A stretch of 64,000 nt of DNA from positions 433,543 to 497,542 of the forward strand of contig DS990260.1 in assembly GCA_000155435.1 (NCBI GenBank), in the 5' to 3' direction. Below, piece by piece: positions 3-21,461 of the stretch (position 1 is the first letter of the stretch; each line of letters opens with the position of its first letter). This DNA is from Clostridiales bacterium 1_7_47FAA. Its GTDB lineage: Bacteria > Bacillota > Clostridia > Lachnospirales > Lachnospiraceae. Made by a program: the position numbers and the translations under genes. The notes under the pieces are model-generated. The model was not told the DNA's origin and searched no databases. It saw only the letters and a list, made by a program, of their open reading frames with translations.

Positions 3-18
3 ATTCGCATATACGAAT
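3..18. promoter_or_regulatory. candidate regulator binding site (ATTCG-N6-CGAAT)
   Basis: An almost perfect 16-bp inverted repeat, ATTCGCATATACGAAT, followed about 20 bp later by a related CATATTTGCGA. The core resembles the CGTATATGC motif repeated upstream of the neighbouring IclR-type gene (914-981), so it may be another site for the same regulator, controlling a gene left of the window. Inference from motif similarity only. Confidence 0.35.
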
Positions 19-17330: not shown

Positions 17331-17722
17331 CCTCCCACTCCCTATCTCTATTATTATATTGTTAAGTCTCCCATTTTACTACAAAAATTTCATTTTTCGT
17401 GTCACAATCCCATATCTTGTCTGTAAACATGTACCTAATGTCCATATTATATCACAATATATGAATATTTCATATGGGCAGACTCCCTGATATCAAGTTA
17501 ATGTCACAAAGTTTTGGAGCCTTTTTCAAGGCTCCAAGTCTGCAAACCAGCATAACTTCGTAGGGAGTATAGTAAATTAGTGCTAAGTTAGTATTTAGAA
17601 AATATATATATGTTCATTTATAGCAATAAAAACAAATTAACACCGAAATCATTTATAGATTTTAACTTTTTAGACAAATATTCCTATTATACACAATAGT
17701 GATTATGCAACACACCTGCTAA
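17331..17722. other. AT-rich gene-free stretch with one perfect hairpin
   Basis: No credible coding region. The dgt promoter should lie here on the minus strand, but no single candidate stands out. A perfect 10-bp hairpin (TTGGAGCCTT 17514-17523 with AAGGCTCCAA 17528-17537) has no U-run after it on either strand. It may end the small-gene operon to its right. Base composition drops sharply here relative to dgt and stays low through 19.7 kb. Confidence 0.5.
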
Positions 17723-17911
17723 TTATGCGAAGTCTCTTTCTCTTAACTCATAAAAATCTATGCCGCAACCATTTAATTTATAATGAAGTAATTTACAAAT
17801 ACGTTCATCGCAGGAAGCAAAAAACATTTGATTTCTATTTTTATCTCCCAAATACATGTTTTCTAATTTCTGTTTCTCTTTTAAATTAAGTTTCTCCTCT
17901 AAAATACTCAT
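17723..17911 (-). CDS. hypothetical protein, third gene of the ATPase operon
   Basis: 62 residues, charged, probably helical, with two cysteines (ASCDERICK) and one later (GCGIDF). No family recognised. The ATG lies three bases after the stop of the TOPRIM-like gene and GAGGG sits ten bases before it, inside that gene, so the two are translationally coupled. Composition is as AT-rich as the two genes before it. A protein this size at the end of a defence-like operon could be an immunity or accessory factor, but nothing in the sequence shows that. Confidence 0.55.
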   Translation of the reverse strand: MSILEEKLNLKEKQKLENMYLGDKNRNQMFFASCDERICKLLHYKLNGCGIDFYELRERDFA

Positions 17912-17914
17912 GTA

Positions 17915-18442
17915 CTACTTACCCTCTTCTCTATTAAGCAAATCAGAAATTGTCCACTCCCCGTTTCGCACATTTGATACTCTCCGATATTCATAAATTG
18001 CGTGAATCAGTATATCTACGTTAGAGAAGTATGCTTTAACAAAATCATATGATTTAATCTCCTTGCCCTTCATCTTAGCTTTGCAAAATTCACTTGGCTT
18101 TATTCCCGATTTTTTAAATTCGGAATACAACCCTTCATTCAAAATGATTAACATTTCAATCTCAGGTGCCGTTATAACGTTAATAACATCAACTTTTTTT
18201 GCATAAGCTGGACTGAGCTTAAAATTTTCTCTTCTGGAATCTAAAACTCTATAAACTGTGATTTTTTCTGAAAATCCCTTTTTCAAATATCGTTCTTCAA
18301 AATCCTTACCTTTTCTACACCGAAGGATTTCTTCTTCAATCAGGTTTTCTTTTTCAAAAATCAATTTATTGTTCTCTAAAAGCAAATCAAGTATTGCACG
18401 TTCTGCTCCACCTTCACAAATACAAGCTATATATTTCCCCAA
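17915..18442 (-). CDS. TOPRIM / RloB-like (AbiLii-like) protein paired with an ATPase
   Basis: 175 residues. The start IACICEGGAERAILDLLLE looks like the first TOPRIM motif, with Glu at position 10. YRVLDSRRE (about 64-72) is where TOPRIM proteins carry their DxD-type motif, here D-S-R, and TAPEIEMLIILNEG (about 91-104) resembles the PxxExW-like segment of RloB. It is therefore a probable nuclease-like effector with a degenerate or variant acidic triad. Its place 14 bp after an ABC/AAA ATPase matches the layout of RloA-RloB, AbiL and PARIS-type pairs. Family membership is inferred from motif order and context. Markedly AT-rich. Confidence 0.6.
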   Translation of the reverse strand: MGKYIACICEGGAERAILDLLLENNKLIFEKENLIEEEILRCRKGKDFEERYLKKGFSEKITVYRVLDSRRENFKLSPAYAKKVDVINVITAPEIEMLIILNEGLYSEFKKSGIKPSEFCKAKMKGKEIKSYDFVKAYFSNVDILIHAIYEYRRVSNVRNGEWTISDLLNREEGK

Positions 18443-18456
18443 TATGTATTCCTCCT

Positions 18457-19611
18457 CTAGTTACGATTTATGAGGACTTTTTTCAAGGCAATATAAGCTT
18501 CATAGGTTGGAACGGTTCCTTCTAAAAAGTCACTTTGATATGCTTCACTTTTTTTAATATCATTCCTTTTTAATATATTCGATAAGTTCTCTGCCGAAAT
18601 ACCGTTCCGATTCCTAACAATAAAAATATTATCATTTCGTTCAAATTCATCTAATAGTTCGGAATAATGTGTTGAGAAAATAATGACTGCACCATTTTTA
18701 TTGACCTTAGAATCCCGGAAAAATCGAATCAATGTGGAAACAATCTCCCTGTTAAAGTGATTTTCCACCTCGTCTACAATAAGATACCCTCCATCTTCAA
18801 ATGCAAAAAAAGCATTCATAAACACACTGATTCCTTTTATAGTGCCGGAAGAAAGATATTTGTCCAATACCATTGGATTGTTCATTAAGATTTCTTCTTT
18901 TCCTTTAAATTTCAACCGAATATCAACATCTTTCTCATCTACAGCACATTTTAAATATTCAATACTAGGGTCGAGGAATAGTAAAAGCTCTTTCGGAAAT
19001 TTCCCCAGCAAATTCAGCATATTAAAATTTGTCCATTTCGACATGTCACACAGGAACACTTTCGATTTATGCTTTTTATTAAAAGCAATAATTATACTGA
19101 CATCATCCATCAGATATTCTTCGTCCTGATTTCGTTTCACAGCAGGAATGCCTTGAAAATCAAACATCCCCTTCTTCGTTTTTATTTTTGTCGATTTCTG
19201 TGACCACAGGTTTTCACTTTCAATCATATATCTGGTATTCTCATCGATTGGATTTATTGTCTTTTTTATAACAGTTTCCAATTTGTTAAGCAATCCTGAA
19301 TGATAAAAAAACGTAGTAAAAGTTACAGTTTGCTCATCATTAATATCCTCTAAAATTTCCTTTGTTTCAATCGCATTGATTGGCTTATTGTTCAATAAAT
19401 TTATCACAAAAGCTATCACTCTTAAAATTGTAGTTTTTCCCGATGCATTAATGCCAATAAATGATATCGAATTATTAACATAAATATTTGAGAATATCTG
19501 ATACAATCCATCGTTATTCTCTGACTGCACTCTCTGCTGTGCAAAAAAATCAATTTCTAAATTTTCTTTAAAGTGAGGTAAGCCACCTACTTGTATTTTA
19601 ATCAGTTTCAT
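18457..19611 (-). CDS. AAA / ABC-type ATPase of an abortive-infection-like operon (RloA/AbiLi-like)
   Basis: 384 residues of the AAA_15/RecF-like ABC ATPase group found in OLD, RloA, AbiL and PARIS systems. Visible motifs: Walker A GINASGKTT at 53-61, signature-like LSSGT at 253-257, Walker B YLIVDEVEN at 276-284, and switch histidine FSTH at 312-315. The C-terminus GTVPTYEAYIALKKVL is typical of RloA-like proteins. No nuclease domain is fused, consistent with the separate downstream gene. AGGAGGG lies five bases before the ATG, and a consensus promoter lies 47-75 bp upstream. All three genes are much more AT-rich than their flanks, a sign of horizontal transfer. Confidence 0.8.
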   Translation of the reverse strand: MKLIKIQVGGLPHFKENLEIDFFAQQRVQSENNDGLYQIFSNIYVNNSISFIGINASGKTTILRVIAFVINLLNNKPINAIETKEILEDINDEQTVTFTTFFYHSGLLNKLETVIKKTINPIDENTRYMIESENLWSQKSTKIKTKKGMFDFQGIPAVKRNQDEEYLMDDVSIIIAFNKKHKSKVFLCDMSKWTNFNMLNLLGKFPKELLLFLDPSIEYLKCAVDEKDVDIRLKFKGKEEILMNNPMVLDKYLSSGTIKGISVFMNAFFAFEDGGYLIVDEVENHFNREIVSTLIRFFRDSKVNKNGAVIIFSTHYSELLDEFERNDNIFIVRNRNGISAENLSNILKRNDIKKSEAYQSDFLEGTVPTYEAYIALKKVLINRN

Positions 19612-19657
19612 AATCCCTCCTAGAATTTATCTACAAGATTTTCGTTTTTATATTGTT

Positions 19658-19686
19658 ATTATATCCTCTTTTTTTACTTTTATCAA
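19658..19686 (-). promoter_or_regulatory. promoter of the ATPase operon
   Basis: TTGATA (19686-19681) and a perfect TATAAT (19663-19658) with 17-bp spacing, 47 bp upstream of the ATPase start. The operon therefore carries its own strong vegetative promoter directly after the protease stop codon. Confidence 0.85.
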
Positions 19687-19715
19687 TATTTATTTTTAGA
19701 TTTTACGTTATTATA

Positions 19716-21461
19716 TTAAATCGGCAGGCTGTCCCGCACACACAGCGCCCCATACCCCAGCTGCGGATTGGGCCAGGTCCCGTATCCCGGCAGGTGCCTG
19801 GCTCCCCGGGCCAGATATGCCTTTACCTTCTCCCCGTAAAGGAAAGGGTCGTTTCCATCCACGATGCCCCACTGCATGAGGAGGGCCGCGCTACCGGACA
19901 CAAAGGGCGCCGCAAAGGAAGTGCCAGTCACCGCCTCATATCCGCCGCCGCTTCTGGCTGTCACGATGTCCACCCCGGGAGCCACAAGGTCCGGCTTTAC
20001 CTGCTGTGTCTGGCGCGTAAAACCGCGTCCTGAAAAATCCGCATACGATTGGTAAGAATCATCATAGGCGCCCACGGATATCACATTGGCTGCCGTGGAA
20101 GGGATGGTAAGGGTGGTCTCCGGCACAGGCATAAGGAACCGGGTGGAGGGATTCAGGATTCCCCTGGAGGGCAGCCACATGTCGTATTGTCCCGTCACGA
20201 TCCGCTCCGGCGTAAGGCGGAAGGTCCAGATCCCGCTGTCCAGATAGTCCCTTATGGGGATGAAATCAAAATAAACTTCCTGCGCCTTACTGTAAGGGCT
20301 GGGCTTGCCATAATAAATCAGGATCCTGGTCCCCCCGTAATTCAGGGTCTGAGGCCCCAGACGGCTGTCTATGGGACCGATGGTGCCGCCTGAGGGCGTA
20401 ATCAAACGGATGGCAAACCCGTCCACATAGGATTTCCAAAGCTGGACTCCCATGCCGGTCTCAAAAGGCGCAATGGATAATTCCACATCCATGTCACTGC
20501 CCATGACCAGCCGGCCCGCCGTGTGCCCGTTTCCAGTGCCTTCATTTCCAGTCCCTGCAACCAGTACGCTCCTTCCATAATTCGATATATCGTTCATGAA
20601 GGTCTCCAGAAGGCTGGTGCCGTCATGGGAACCATAGGTGTTGCCAAAACTCAGGTTGACTGCAACAGGACGCCCCAGCTCCTGGGCCTGGCGGATTACA
20701 AAGTCCAGTCCCTTCATCAGCTGTGTGGTCCTTGGGAAATTATCAGCCACAGGGGCGCCCAGTTTTACCACCAATAAGTCACTTTCATACGCCACCCCGC
20801 GGTAGACCCCCTGGCTTCCCCTTCCATTCCCGGCCGCAATGGCTGCCACGGCTGTCCCATGGCCGCTTAAATCCACGGAAGGCACAAGGTCAAGGGCGCC
20901 TGCCCGGTCAGATGCGTTCAGCGCCTCATTGATTTCTTCCCGTGTATAAATCCTGTCCCTGTCCTGGTCCATGAGCATGAGGATTCTGGTGGTCCCGTCC
21001 GCATTCCTGAAGTCCTGGTTCAGATAGTCGATGCCAGAATCAATGACCGCCACCAGTACACCGCGTCCGGTCAGTCCGCCCGGCAGTCCGCTTATGACCC
21101 CGCCCGTCACATTGCCCGCGCCTGAGGGGGATTGGACCACGGAAAGACAGGAGGCCGCCCTTGCCATGTTGCTGGCAAAGAACAGCCTCTTTGGTTTCTC
21201 AATATATTCAATCTGGTTCAGCTCACTGACCTGGTCCACAAGGTGTTCCGGCACCACCAGGACAGCGTACCCGTTAAGGAGTTCATCCACCTGGATTCCT
21301 GCCCCTGCAAGGCCCGCAAGACTGCCTGAATGCCGGACAATCAGTTCCCATGTCCGTTCTTCAGGGTCATAACCCACGTCCAGGTTTTCGGAGCGCTCCC
21401 GCTCCTCGTCCGTGGCGCTGAGGGCCAGATTCAGTAGATTTTCCCGTTTTTGGTTCTGCAT
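19716..21461 (-). CDS. subtilisin-like serine protease (Csp-like, S8 family)
   Basis: 581 residues without a signal peptide. The catalytic triad is intact: Asp in VAVIDSGIDYLNQDF, His in DLSGHGTAVAAIAAG and Ser in TGTSFAAPFVSGSAALLM. A long insertion between His and Ser (about 180 residues of jelly-roll-like sequence) and the short N-terminal prodomain match the clostridial Csp proteases. Those cleave pro-SleC to start spore cortex hydrolysis or act as germinant-sensing pseudoproteases; the intact triad here favours an active enzyme. It stands alone between the ATPase operon and a transporter. Confidence 0.88.
   Translation of the reverse strand: MQNQKRENLLNLALSATDEERERSENLDVGYDPEERTWELIVRHSGSLAGLAGAGIQVDELLNGYAVLVVPEHLVDQVSELNQIEYIEKPKRLFFASNMARAASCLSVVQSPSGAGNVTGGVISGLPGGLTGRGVLVAVIDSGIDYLNQDFRNADGTTRILMLMDQDRDRIYTREEINEALNASDRAGALDLVPSVDLSGHGTAVAAIAAGNGRGSQGVYRGVAYESDLLVVKLGAPVADNFPRTTQLMKGLDFVIRQAQELGRPVAVNLSFGNTYGSHDGTSLLETFMNDISNYGRSVLVAGTGNEGTGNGHTAGRLVMGSDMDVELSIAPFETGMGVQLWKSYVDGFAIRLITPSGGTIGPIDSRLGPQTLNYGGTRILIYYGKPSPYSKAQEVYFDFIPIRDYLDSGIWTFRLTPERIVTGQYDMWLPSRGILNPSTRFLMPVPETTLTIPSTAANVISVGAYDDSYQSYADFSGRGFTRQTQQVKPDLVAPGVDIVTARSGGGYEAVTGTSFAAPFVSGSAALLMQWGIVDGNDPFLYGEKVKAYLARGARHLPGYGTWPNPQLGYGALCVRDSLPI

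Follow-up and report, generated by a model that had tools for sequence, protein, structure and literature searches.

The window, by which we mean the whole 64,000-nucleotide stretch of DNA that was analysed, contains three frames on the minus strand between dgt and the gene for a Csp-type protease. These frames, together with a promoter and two predicted operators, make up most of an inserted stretch with the following features.

17554..19716, no strand assigned: inserted stretch, ends approximate, from alignment with empty sites of the same genus; GC 30.5%
19690..19714, minus strand: predicted operator O1, ATAATAACG-N7-TAAAAATAA, matching at 8 of 12 fixed positions, with a degenerate right half; immediately before the -35
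19658..19686, minus strand: promoter TTGATA-17-TATAAT, between the two predicted operators
19627..19651, minus strand: predicted operator O2, ATAAAAACG-N7-TGTAGATAA, matching at 10 of 12 fixed positions; within the leader, after the -10 and before the ribosome site
18457..19611, minus strand: gene A, 384-aa ABC-type ATPase with an AbiLi/AriA/PtuA/Rad50-like head and no nuclease domain
17915..18442, minus strand: gene B, 175-aa putative nuclease effector, TOPRIM/OLD-like, TTG start
17723..17911, minus strand: 62-aa frame C, probably left over from the C-terminal end of a Lamassu LmuB-type ATPase; outside the pair

A preliminary description of this DNA had reported three tightly packed, AT-rich frames with a promoter of their own, and each of these features is present: the gaps are 14 bp between A and B and 3 bp between B and C, the promoter reads TTGATA-17-TATAAT at 19686-19658, and the GC content of the 2.16-kb stretch is 30.5% against 50.4% for the whole window, the lowest of all segments of equal length taken in 50-base steps across it. 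The same description proposed horizontal acquisition, and comparison with related genomes upholds it. In 10 of the 16 other genus genomes the fetched flanks show dgt adjoining the Csp-type protease gene with only an intergenic stretch between them, an empty site, so that the operon is not kept there genus-wide; no protease match was present in the fetched flank of the remaining six. Alignment with same-genus genomes places the end of the empty-site homology at ~17,553 and its restart at ~19,717, limits which imply that the insert is essentially the promoter, A, B and C plus ~170 bp, and O1 starts at its very edge. Only AT-rich, chance-like pairs were found as direct repeats at the insertion ends. 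Among 17 genus genomes, full-length A at high identity occurs in this genome alone; one other (G411) has fragments of A, and the further genus matches to A are partial, at 24–31% identity. The pair also lies downstream of a Csp-type subtilase gene, whole, cut or remnant, in L069, L084, L087, L091 and L092; the site thus recurs, making it a possible insertion hotspot.

Linkage, spread and selection of the A-B pair

Gene A contains the Walker A motif GINASGKT followed by LSSGT, LIVDEVENHF and STHYS, the ATPase motifs described earlier, all of which are conserved in its relatives. The best of its profile matches is to PADLOC AbiLi (1.1e-31), and its fold is Rad50/PtuA/AriA-like, as in the AriA-type ABC ATPase of PARIS. 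Its sequence thus marks A as a clear relative of the AbiLi-type ATPases.

To follow the pair across genomes we used relatives of B, of which the best 80 of 205 were kept from a scan of named genomes. In 79 of these best 80 loci the gene immediately upstream of B is A, whole or in part; in the remaining one (L077) A is likewise upstream but separated from B by a transposase-like ORF of 391 aa, which brings the total to 80 of 80. The intervening ORF, at L077:4382-5557, appears by eye to be IS110-like. B is also found on seven viral contigs, six with A upstream and a seventh that begins at B, and on three plasmids. The arrangement is that of AbiL, an adjacent two-gene operon with the ATPase first. 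Distances among A proteins correlate with those among B proteins (r 0.93 over 86 loci, 0 of 999 permutations). Within the family Lachnospiraceae, to which this genome belongs, B is patchy, being matched in 34 of 397 genomes when the own genome and partial matches are included. The pair comes from Lachnospiraceae, other Clostridia and Psychromonas, the last not labelled as a metagenome-assembled genome (MAG), and from MAGs assigned to Sulfurovum, Spirochaetaceae, Synergistaceae, Fusobacteriaceae and Muribaculaceae, for which the binning may be wrong.

Both genes are under purifying selection: the median dN/dS is 0.07 for A and for B (85 and 81 pairs, highest 0.17) among pairs with 80–99.5% protein identity, nucleotide identity below 97% and dS below 1.5. 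The A and B sets behind the distances and the residue counts exclude frames with internal stops and frames shorter than 340 aa (A) or 155 aa (B), and count the window copy twice, as the window and as L001. In 35 of the 36 loci that are full-length, the pair region has a lower GC content than the flanking DNA.

No other gene family within 3.5 kb is common to more than 5 of the 81 non-redundant loci, 44 of which have more than 1 kb on both sides. Among the 25 of 116 families listed for 132 neighbours, the AbiLi, AriA and mad3 profiles have three matches each, GajA, reverse-transcriptase, AbiEi and restriction families one or two each, and site-specific recombinases six; the neighbourhoods are thus mildly defence-rich, a weak tendency. 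In four close loci (L087, L091, L092 and L093) a 300-aa protein beginning MKQFLYLDTDIINSII is encoded 42 bp after B. Broken or shortened copies of B occur in L017, L019, L020, L021, L022 and L027; such copies suggest frequent loss of the module.

Promoter and predicted operators

The promoter matches the consensus at 11 of 12 positions and is the best of 11 promoter-like sites found, although the number of sites is meaningless by itself because shuffles give 12.1. A more informative comparison is across relatives, where, of 98 loci with 120 nt available upstream of A, 39 have TTGnnn-16..18-TATAAT in that segment, against 1.0 expected from mononucleotide shuffles.

Upstream of A in these relatives, just before the ribosome site, stands the palindrome TTAnnnACG-N7-CGTnnnTAA, with a half-site of about TTAAAAACG and a 7-bp spacer; a second copy spans or precedes the -35. 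We scored six fixed positions per half with a threshold of at least 9 of 12 in 97 loci with 170 nt upstream, L001 (the window) among them. The proximal site is present in 77 of the 97 loci and both sites in 72, against 0.67 and 0.13 in mononucleotide shuffles; after de-duplication the figures are 63 and 58 of 81. As the loci are related, these counts are not independent events. The two sites lie 61–65 bp apart in 70 loci and 73–74 bp apart in 2. The window, with O1 and O2 63 bp apart, falls outside the 72 because its O1 scores only 8. Other ORF upstreams from the same loci (n=583, upstream of mechanically listed ATG frames of at least 150 aa in L061-L140) have the proximal site alone in three cases and both sites in none. 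The half-site was first spotted by eye in the very loci that were scored, and only five later loci, four of them from other families, were new: three (L189, L190 and L192) have sites 61, 63 and 61 bp apart, those of L192 scoring 9 and 8 of 12, one (L193) lacks the pattern and one (L191) is cut off, so that three of four testable new loci fit.

Fifteen diverged loci were rescored with a looser half-site, TTAAAACR, and the same 7-bp spacer. Two loci alone have both sites scoring above 13, the highest value in shuffles: L127 (Psychromonas), with two strong sites 62 bp apart, and L134 (Fusobacteriaceae MAG), with two such sites 83 bp apart. In most of the others no more than one site rises above the shuffles; L068 (Sulfurovum MAG), for example, combines a strong distal site with one at chance level 63 bp further along. 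The distance between the best two sites is 60.5–63 bp in seven of the 15 loci, 83 bp in one and 15–38 bp in seven. The spacing series of 62, 73 and 83 bp advances by steps of about one helical turn, as is typical of proteins that sit on a single face of the DNA. An RNA hairpin at O2 was considered and rejected: of 231 cells at the unconstrained central positions 110 are paired, fewer than the average of 124.8 in shuffles, and a value at least as high was obtained in 498 of 500 of them. With RNA pairing unsupported, we read the palindromes as DNA operators. Judged from sequence, the pair may be phased operators through which the module controls its own promoter, and may also be the most novel element here; it bears on how two-gene abortive systems might silence themselves without a regulator gene.

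Canonical AbiL/RloB-linked loci gave no operator pair in the 14 of 15 that could be scored, the best single site reaching 8 of 12. The own genome contains such a canonical AbiL/RloAB pair (L163, contig C107 at ~744.5-746.4 kb; AbiLi 7.2e-86, AbiLii 1.3e-28), which likewise lacks the operators of the A-B locus. Promoter control of a defence operon is also reported for CapW, CapK/CapS and RptR; these are separate regulators, whereas A-B has no conserved neighbouring gene. With no conserved neighbouring regulator, binding by the module itself would most simply explain a specificity shared by distant hosts, a reading reached by elimination, since no DNA-binding domain was recognised in A or B. We tentatively suggest that these loci form a separate family of ATPase/TOPRIM modules for immunity in which A, alone or with B, would be a sequence-specific repressor of its own promoter that bridges in-phase operators ~62 bp apart, looping the DNA between them; operator occupancy would then couple sensing, repression and effector release with no separate regulator gene.

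The palindromes might instead be bound by a widely conserved host protein. The same absence of a recognised DNA-binding domain from A and B favours such a protein, and the half-site TTA...ACG shares its ends with the DnaA box, which we take to be TTATNCACA. Positions 6 and 9 of the half-site differ from that box, however, and the same spacer and phasing recur in Lachnospiraceae, Psychromonas, a Spirochaetaceae MAG and others. Nor is the pattern enriched elsewhere: in 10 genomes a relaxed version finds 59 sites, 15 of them at the pair, against 111 for a reversed control. We therefore regard binding by a host protein as doubtful.

Candidate mechanism and effector

We consider it probable that the two genes A and B make a complete sensor-toxin module of ABC-ATPase/TOPRIM type, controlled by the operators, and that the 62-aa frame is an LmuB tail. 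By analogy, the module would work like AbiL and PARIS and serve in defence. According to one report (PMC12409363), the TOPRIM effector of PARIS is held on an ABC ATPase until a phage trigger arrives, and it is from PARIS and AbiL that we assign sensing and restraint to A and cutting to B. An ATP-bound dimer or multimer of A would hold B inactive and sense infection; once triggered, B would act as a metal-dependent TOPRIM-like nuclease, cut nucleic acid and stop growth. Expression would be kept in check by the module itself, most simply by A or an A-B complex binding the two palindromic operators, which bracket the promoter and, with about six helical turns between them, face the same side of the DNA.

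A different reading makes the pair an addiction or stability module of mobile DNA, a toxin-antitoxin system with no primary anti-phage role. Its occurrence on viral contigs and plasmids would suit such a system, as would a bicistron under the predicted operators. AAA proteins acted as antitoxins of TOPRIM_OLD toxins in published tests (PMC10440598), and AbiLii of F. nucleatum is toxic in E. coli while that of L. lactis is not (PMC3985639). The nearest named relatives, AbiL and PARIS, are nevertheless anti-phage systems, and the two functions are not exclusive; we hold a purely addictive role to be unlikely.

B has the motifs CEGGAE, VLDSR and APEIEML as described earlier, conserved in its relatives, and the altered acidic motif noted there proves to be general: D68 is present in 99 of 99 rows, but position 70, the second Asp of the TOPRIM DxD metal motif, is Arg in 91 of 99 and Asp in one. 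A DxR that is family-wide is not local decay, and the missing second Asp makes catalysis by B uncertain. E10, E14, D68, E94 and E96 are conserved in 98–99 of 99 rows, and their spacing is that of the OLD metal ligands (PMC7049728). E72, present in 97 of 99 rows, could from its conservation stand in for the second Asp. The topology of B appears TOPRIM/OLD-like, with OLD regions making up four of the top five structural rows, but the fold match is modest (VIA Z < 8), and Foldseek gave no match at E<=0.001 against PDB or BFVD. AriB is absent from the 50 VIA rows listed for B, an absence that excludes nothing.

Searches by sequence fare differently for the two genes: an AbiLi-type ATPase with a TOPRIM/RloB-like partner, as proposed earlier, is supported for A by its AbiLi match and for B by topology and ligand spacing, B itself matching no family model. 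B reaches no sequence-level significance against RloB or any TOPRIM protein (hhalign probability 0.05-0.4 of 100; 0.25 against a 15-sequence RloB alignment), though low-threshold, non-significant profile alignments with RloB are collinear at the CEG and Asp motifs. No PADLOC or Pfam match to AbiLii or RloB (PF13707) was obtained, a null result for which the AbiLii match at L163 (1.3e-28) is a positive control, and DUF4435 (PF14491) was not matched by 17 B members at E<=1. DUF4435 itself was matched in only 2 of 120 genomes, and for this reason no comparator profile was built. A PDB sequence search with B gave a chance-level match only (E 0.13), as did an RloB query (E 0.1). A match of one of 17 members to the Pfam family DNA_pol3_a_NII (E 0.0018; score 18.6 bits, cut-off 26.3) was taken as chance. 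Phage records contained no match to B. No model in Pfam, NCBIfam, PHROGs or PADLOC picks up the B family, although the partner ATPase is detected, indicating that some effectors of the widespread ATPase/TOPRIM pairs are invisible to current profiles. No published description of the B family or the operator pair was found among the titles and abstract openings listed, mostly of non-subscription literature.

The locus resembles AbiL (AbiLi plus AbiLii/RloB; PADLOC PDLC02335 and PDLC02337) in that a short TOPRIM-like gene comes close behind an ATPase gene, and departs from it in B. It resembles PARIS (AriA plus AriB/DUF4435) in A but again not in its partner. With OLD and Gabija GajA, B shares the metal ligands of the TOPRIM region in the same order and spacing, but it is not fused to an ATPase and lacks the second Asp of DxD. 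The best reading of B is as a new effector subfamily of an AbiL/PARIS-like abortive-infection module, with a presumed role in defence.

Were B instead a catalytically dead TOPRIM-like protein, or of another fold, it would be a regulator or adaptor and A-B a DNA-bound sensor or regulator. The DxR substitution and the lack of a significant Foldseek match would be expected in that case. Near-invariant ligands with OLD-like spacing would not, and E72 offers a possible substitute, which leads us to consider an inactive B quite improbable.

The 62-aa frame

The preliminary description proposed C as a possible third component of the system and asked whether its homologues always follow the pair. They do not: no relative of C occurs in any of the best 80 of 205 loci. 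Residues ~24-62 of C match the tails of LmuB-type proteins at 44–56% identity with E down to 4.5e-9. In 5 of 396 other family genomes C matches the terminal part of a larger frame (E 4.5e-9 to 2.0e-5), while further matches are at E 0.005 or worse; none of the 396 has a stand-alone relative at E<=1e-4, and none was confirmed in viral contigs. The two larger frames that were scanned of the five (L145 and L146) score as Lamassu LmuB (1.8e-22 and 3e-20) and contain the CPxCG zinc-hook motif, a feature of LmuB according to PMC10586767. The other 23 residues of C align weakly to the preceding LmuB region. With the L145 LmuB as query, no other match at E<=0.001 was found in the genome of the window. 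The likeness of C to Lamassu LmuB lies in the last ~39 residues; unlike a full LmuB with its Walker A and B motifs, the window has the tail only, lacking Walker A, the signature motif, the coiled coil and the zinc hook. Among 119 pair loci, an LmuB-tail match occurs at one, that of the window.

The absence of C from the 80 loci, together with the match of ~39 residues to an LmuB C-terminus, indicates that C is most likely a leftover LmuB tail, the simplest reading of its sequence, and the apparent third gene is then probably debris of another defence system. That C is a genuine coupled subunit of this lineage, such as an inhibitor or adaptor, would suit an intact frame whose ATG lies 3 bp past the B stop behind a GAGGG-like ribosome site, but the LmuB-type tail, found only here among the 119 pair loci, and the lack of free-standing relatives in the other family genomes make this highly improbable.

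Another small frame, of 55 aa, lies 12 bp after B in L013 behind a good ribosome site and has no similarity to C (tblastn, E<=0.01). Short LmuB-type frames of 208 and 140 aa are present in L142 and L144, from genomes of the same family, and are possibly remnants like that in the window.
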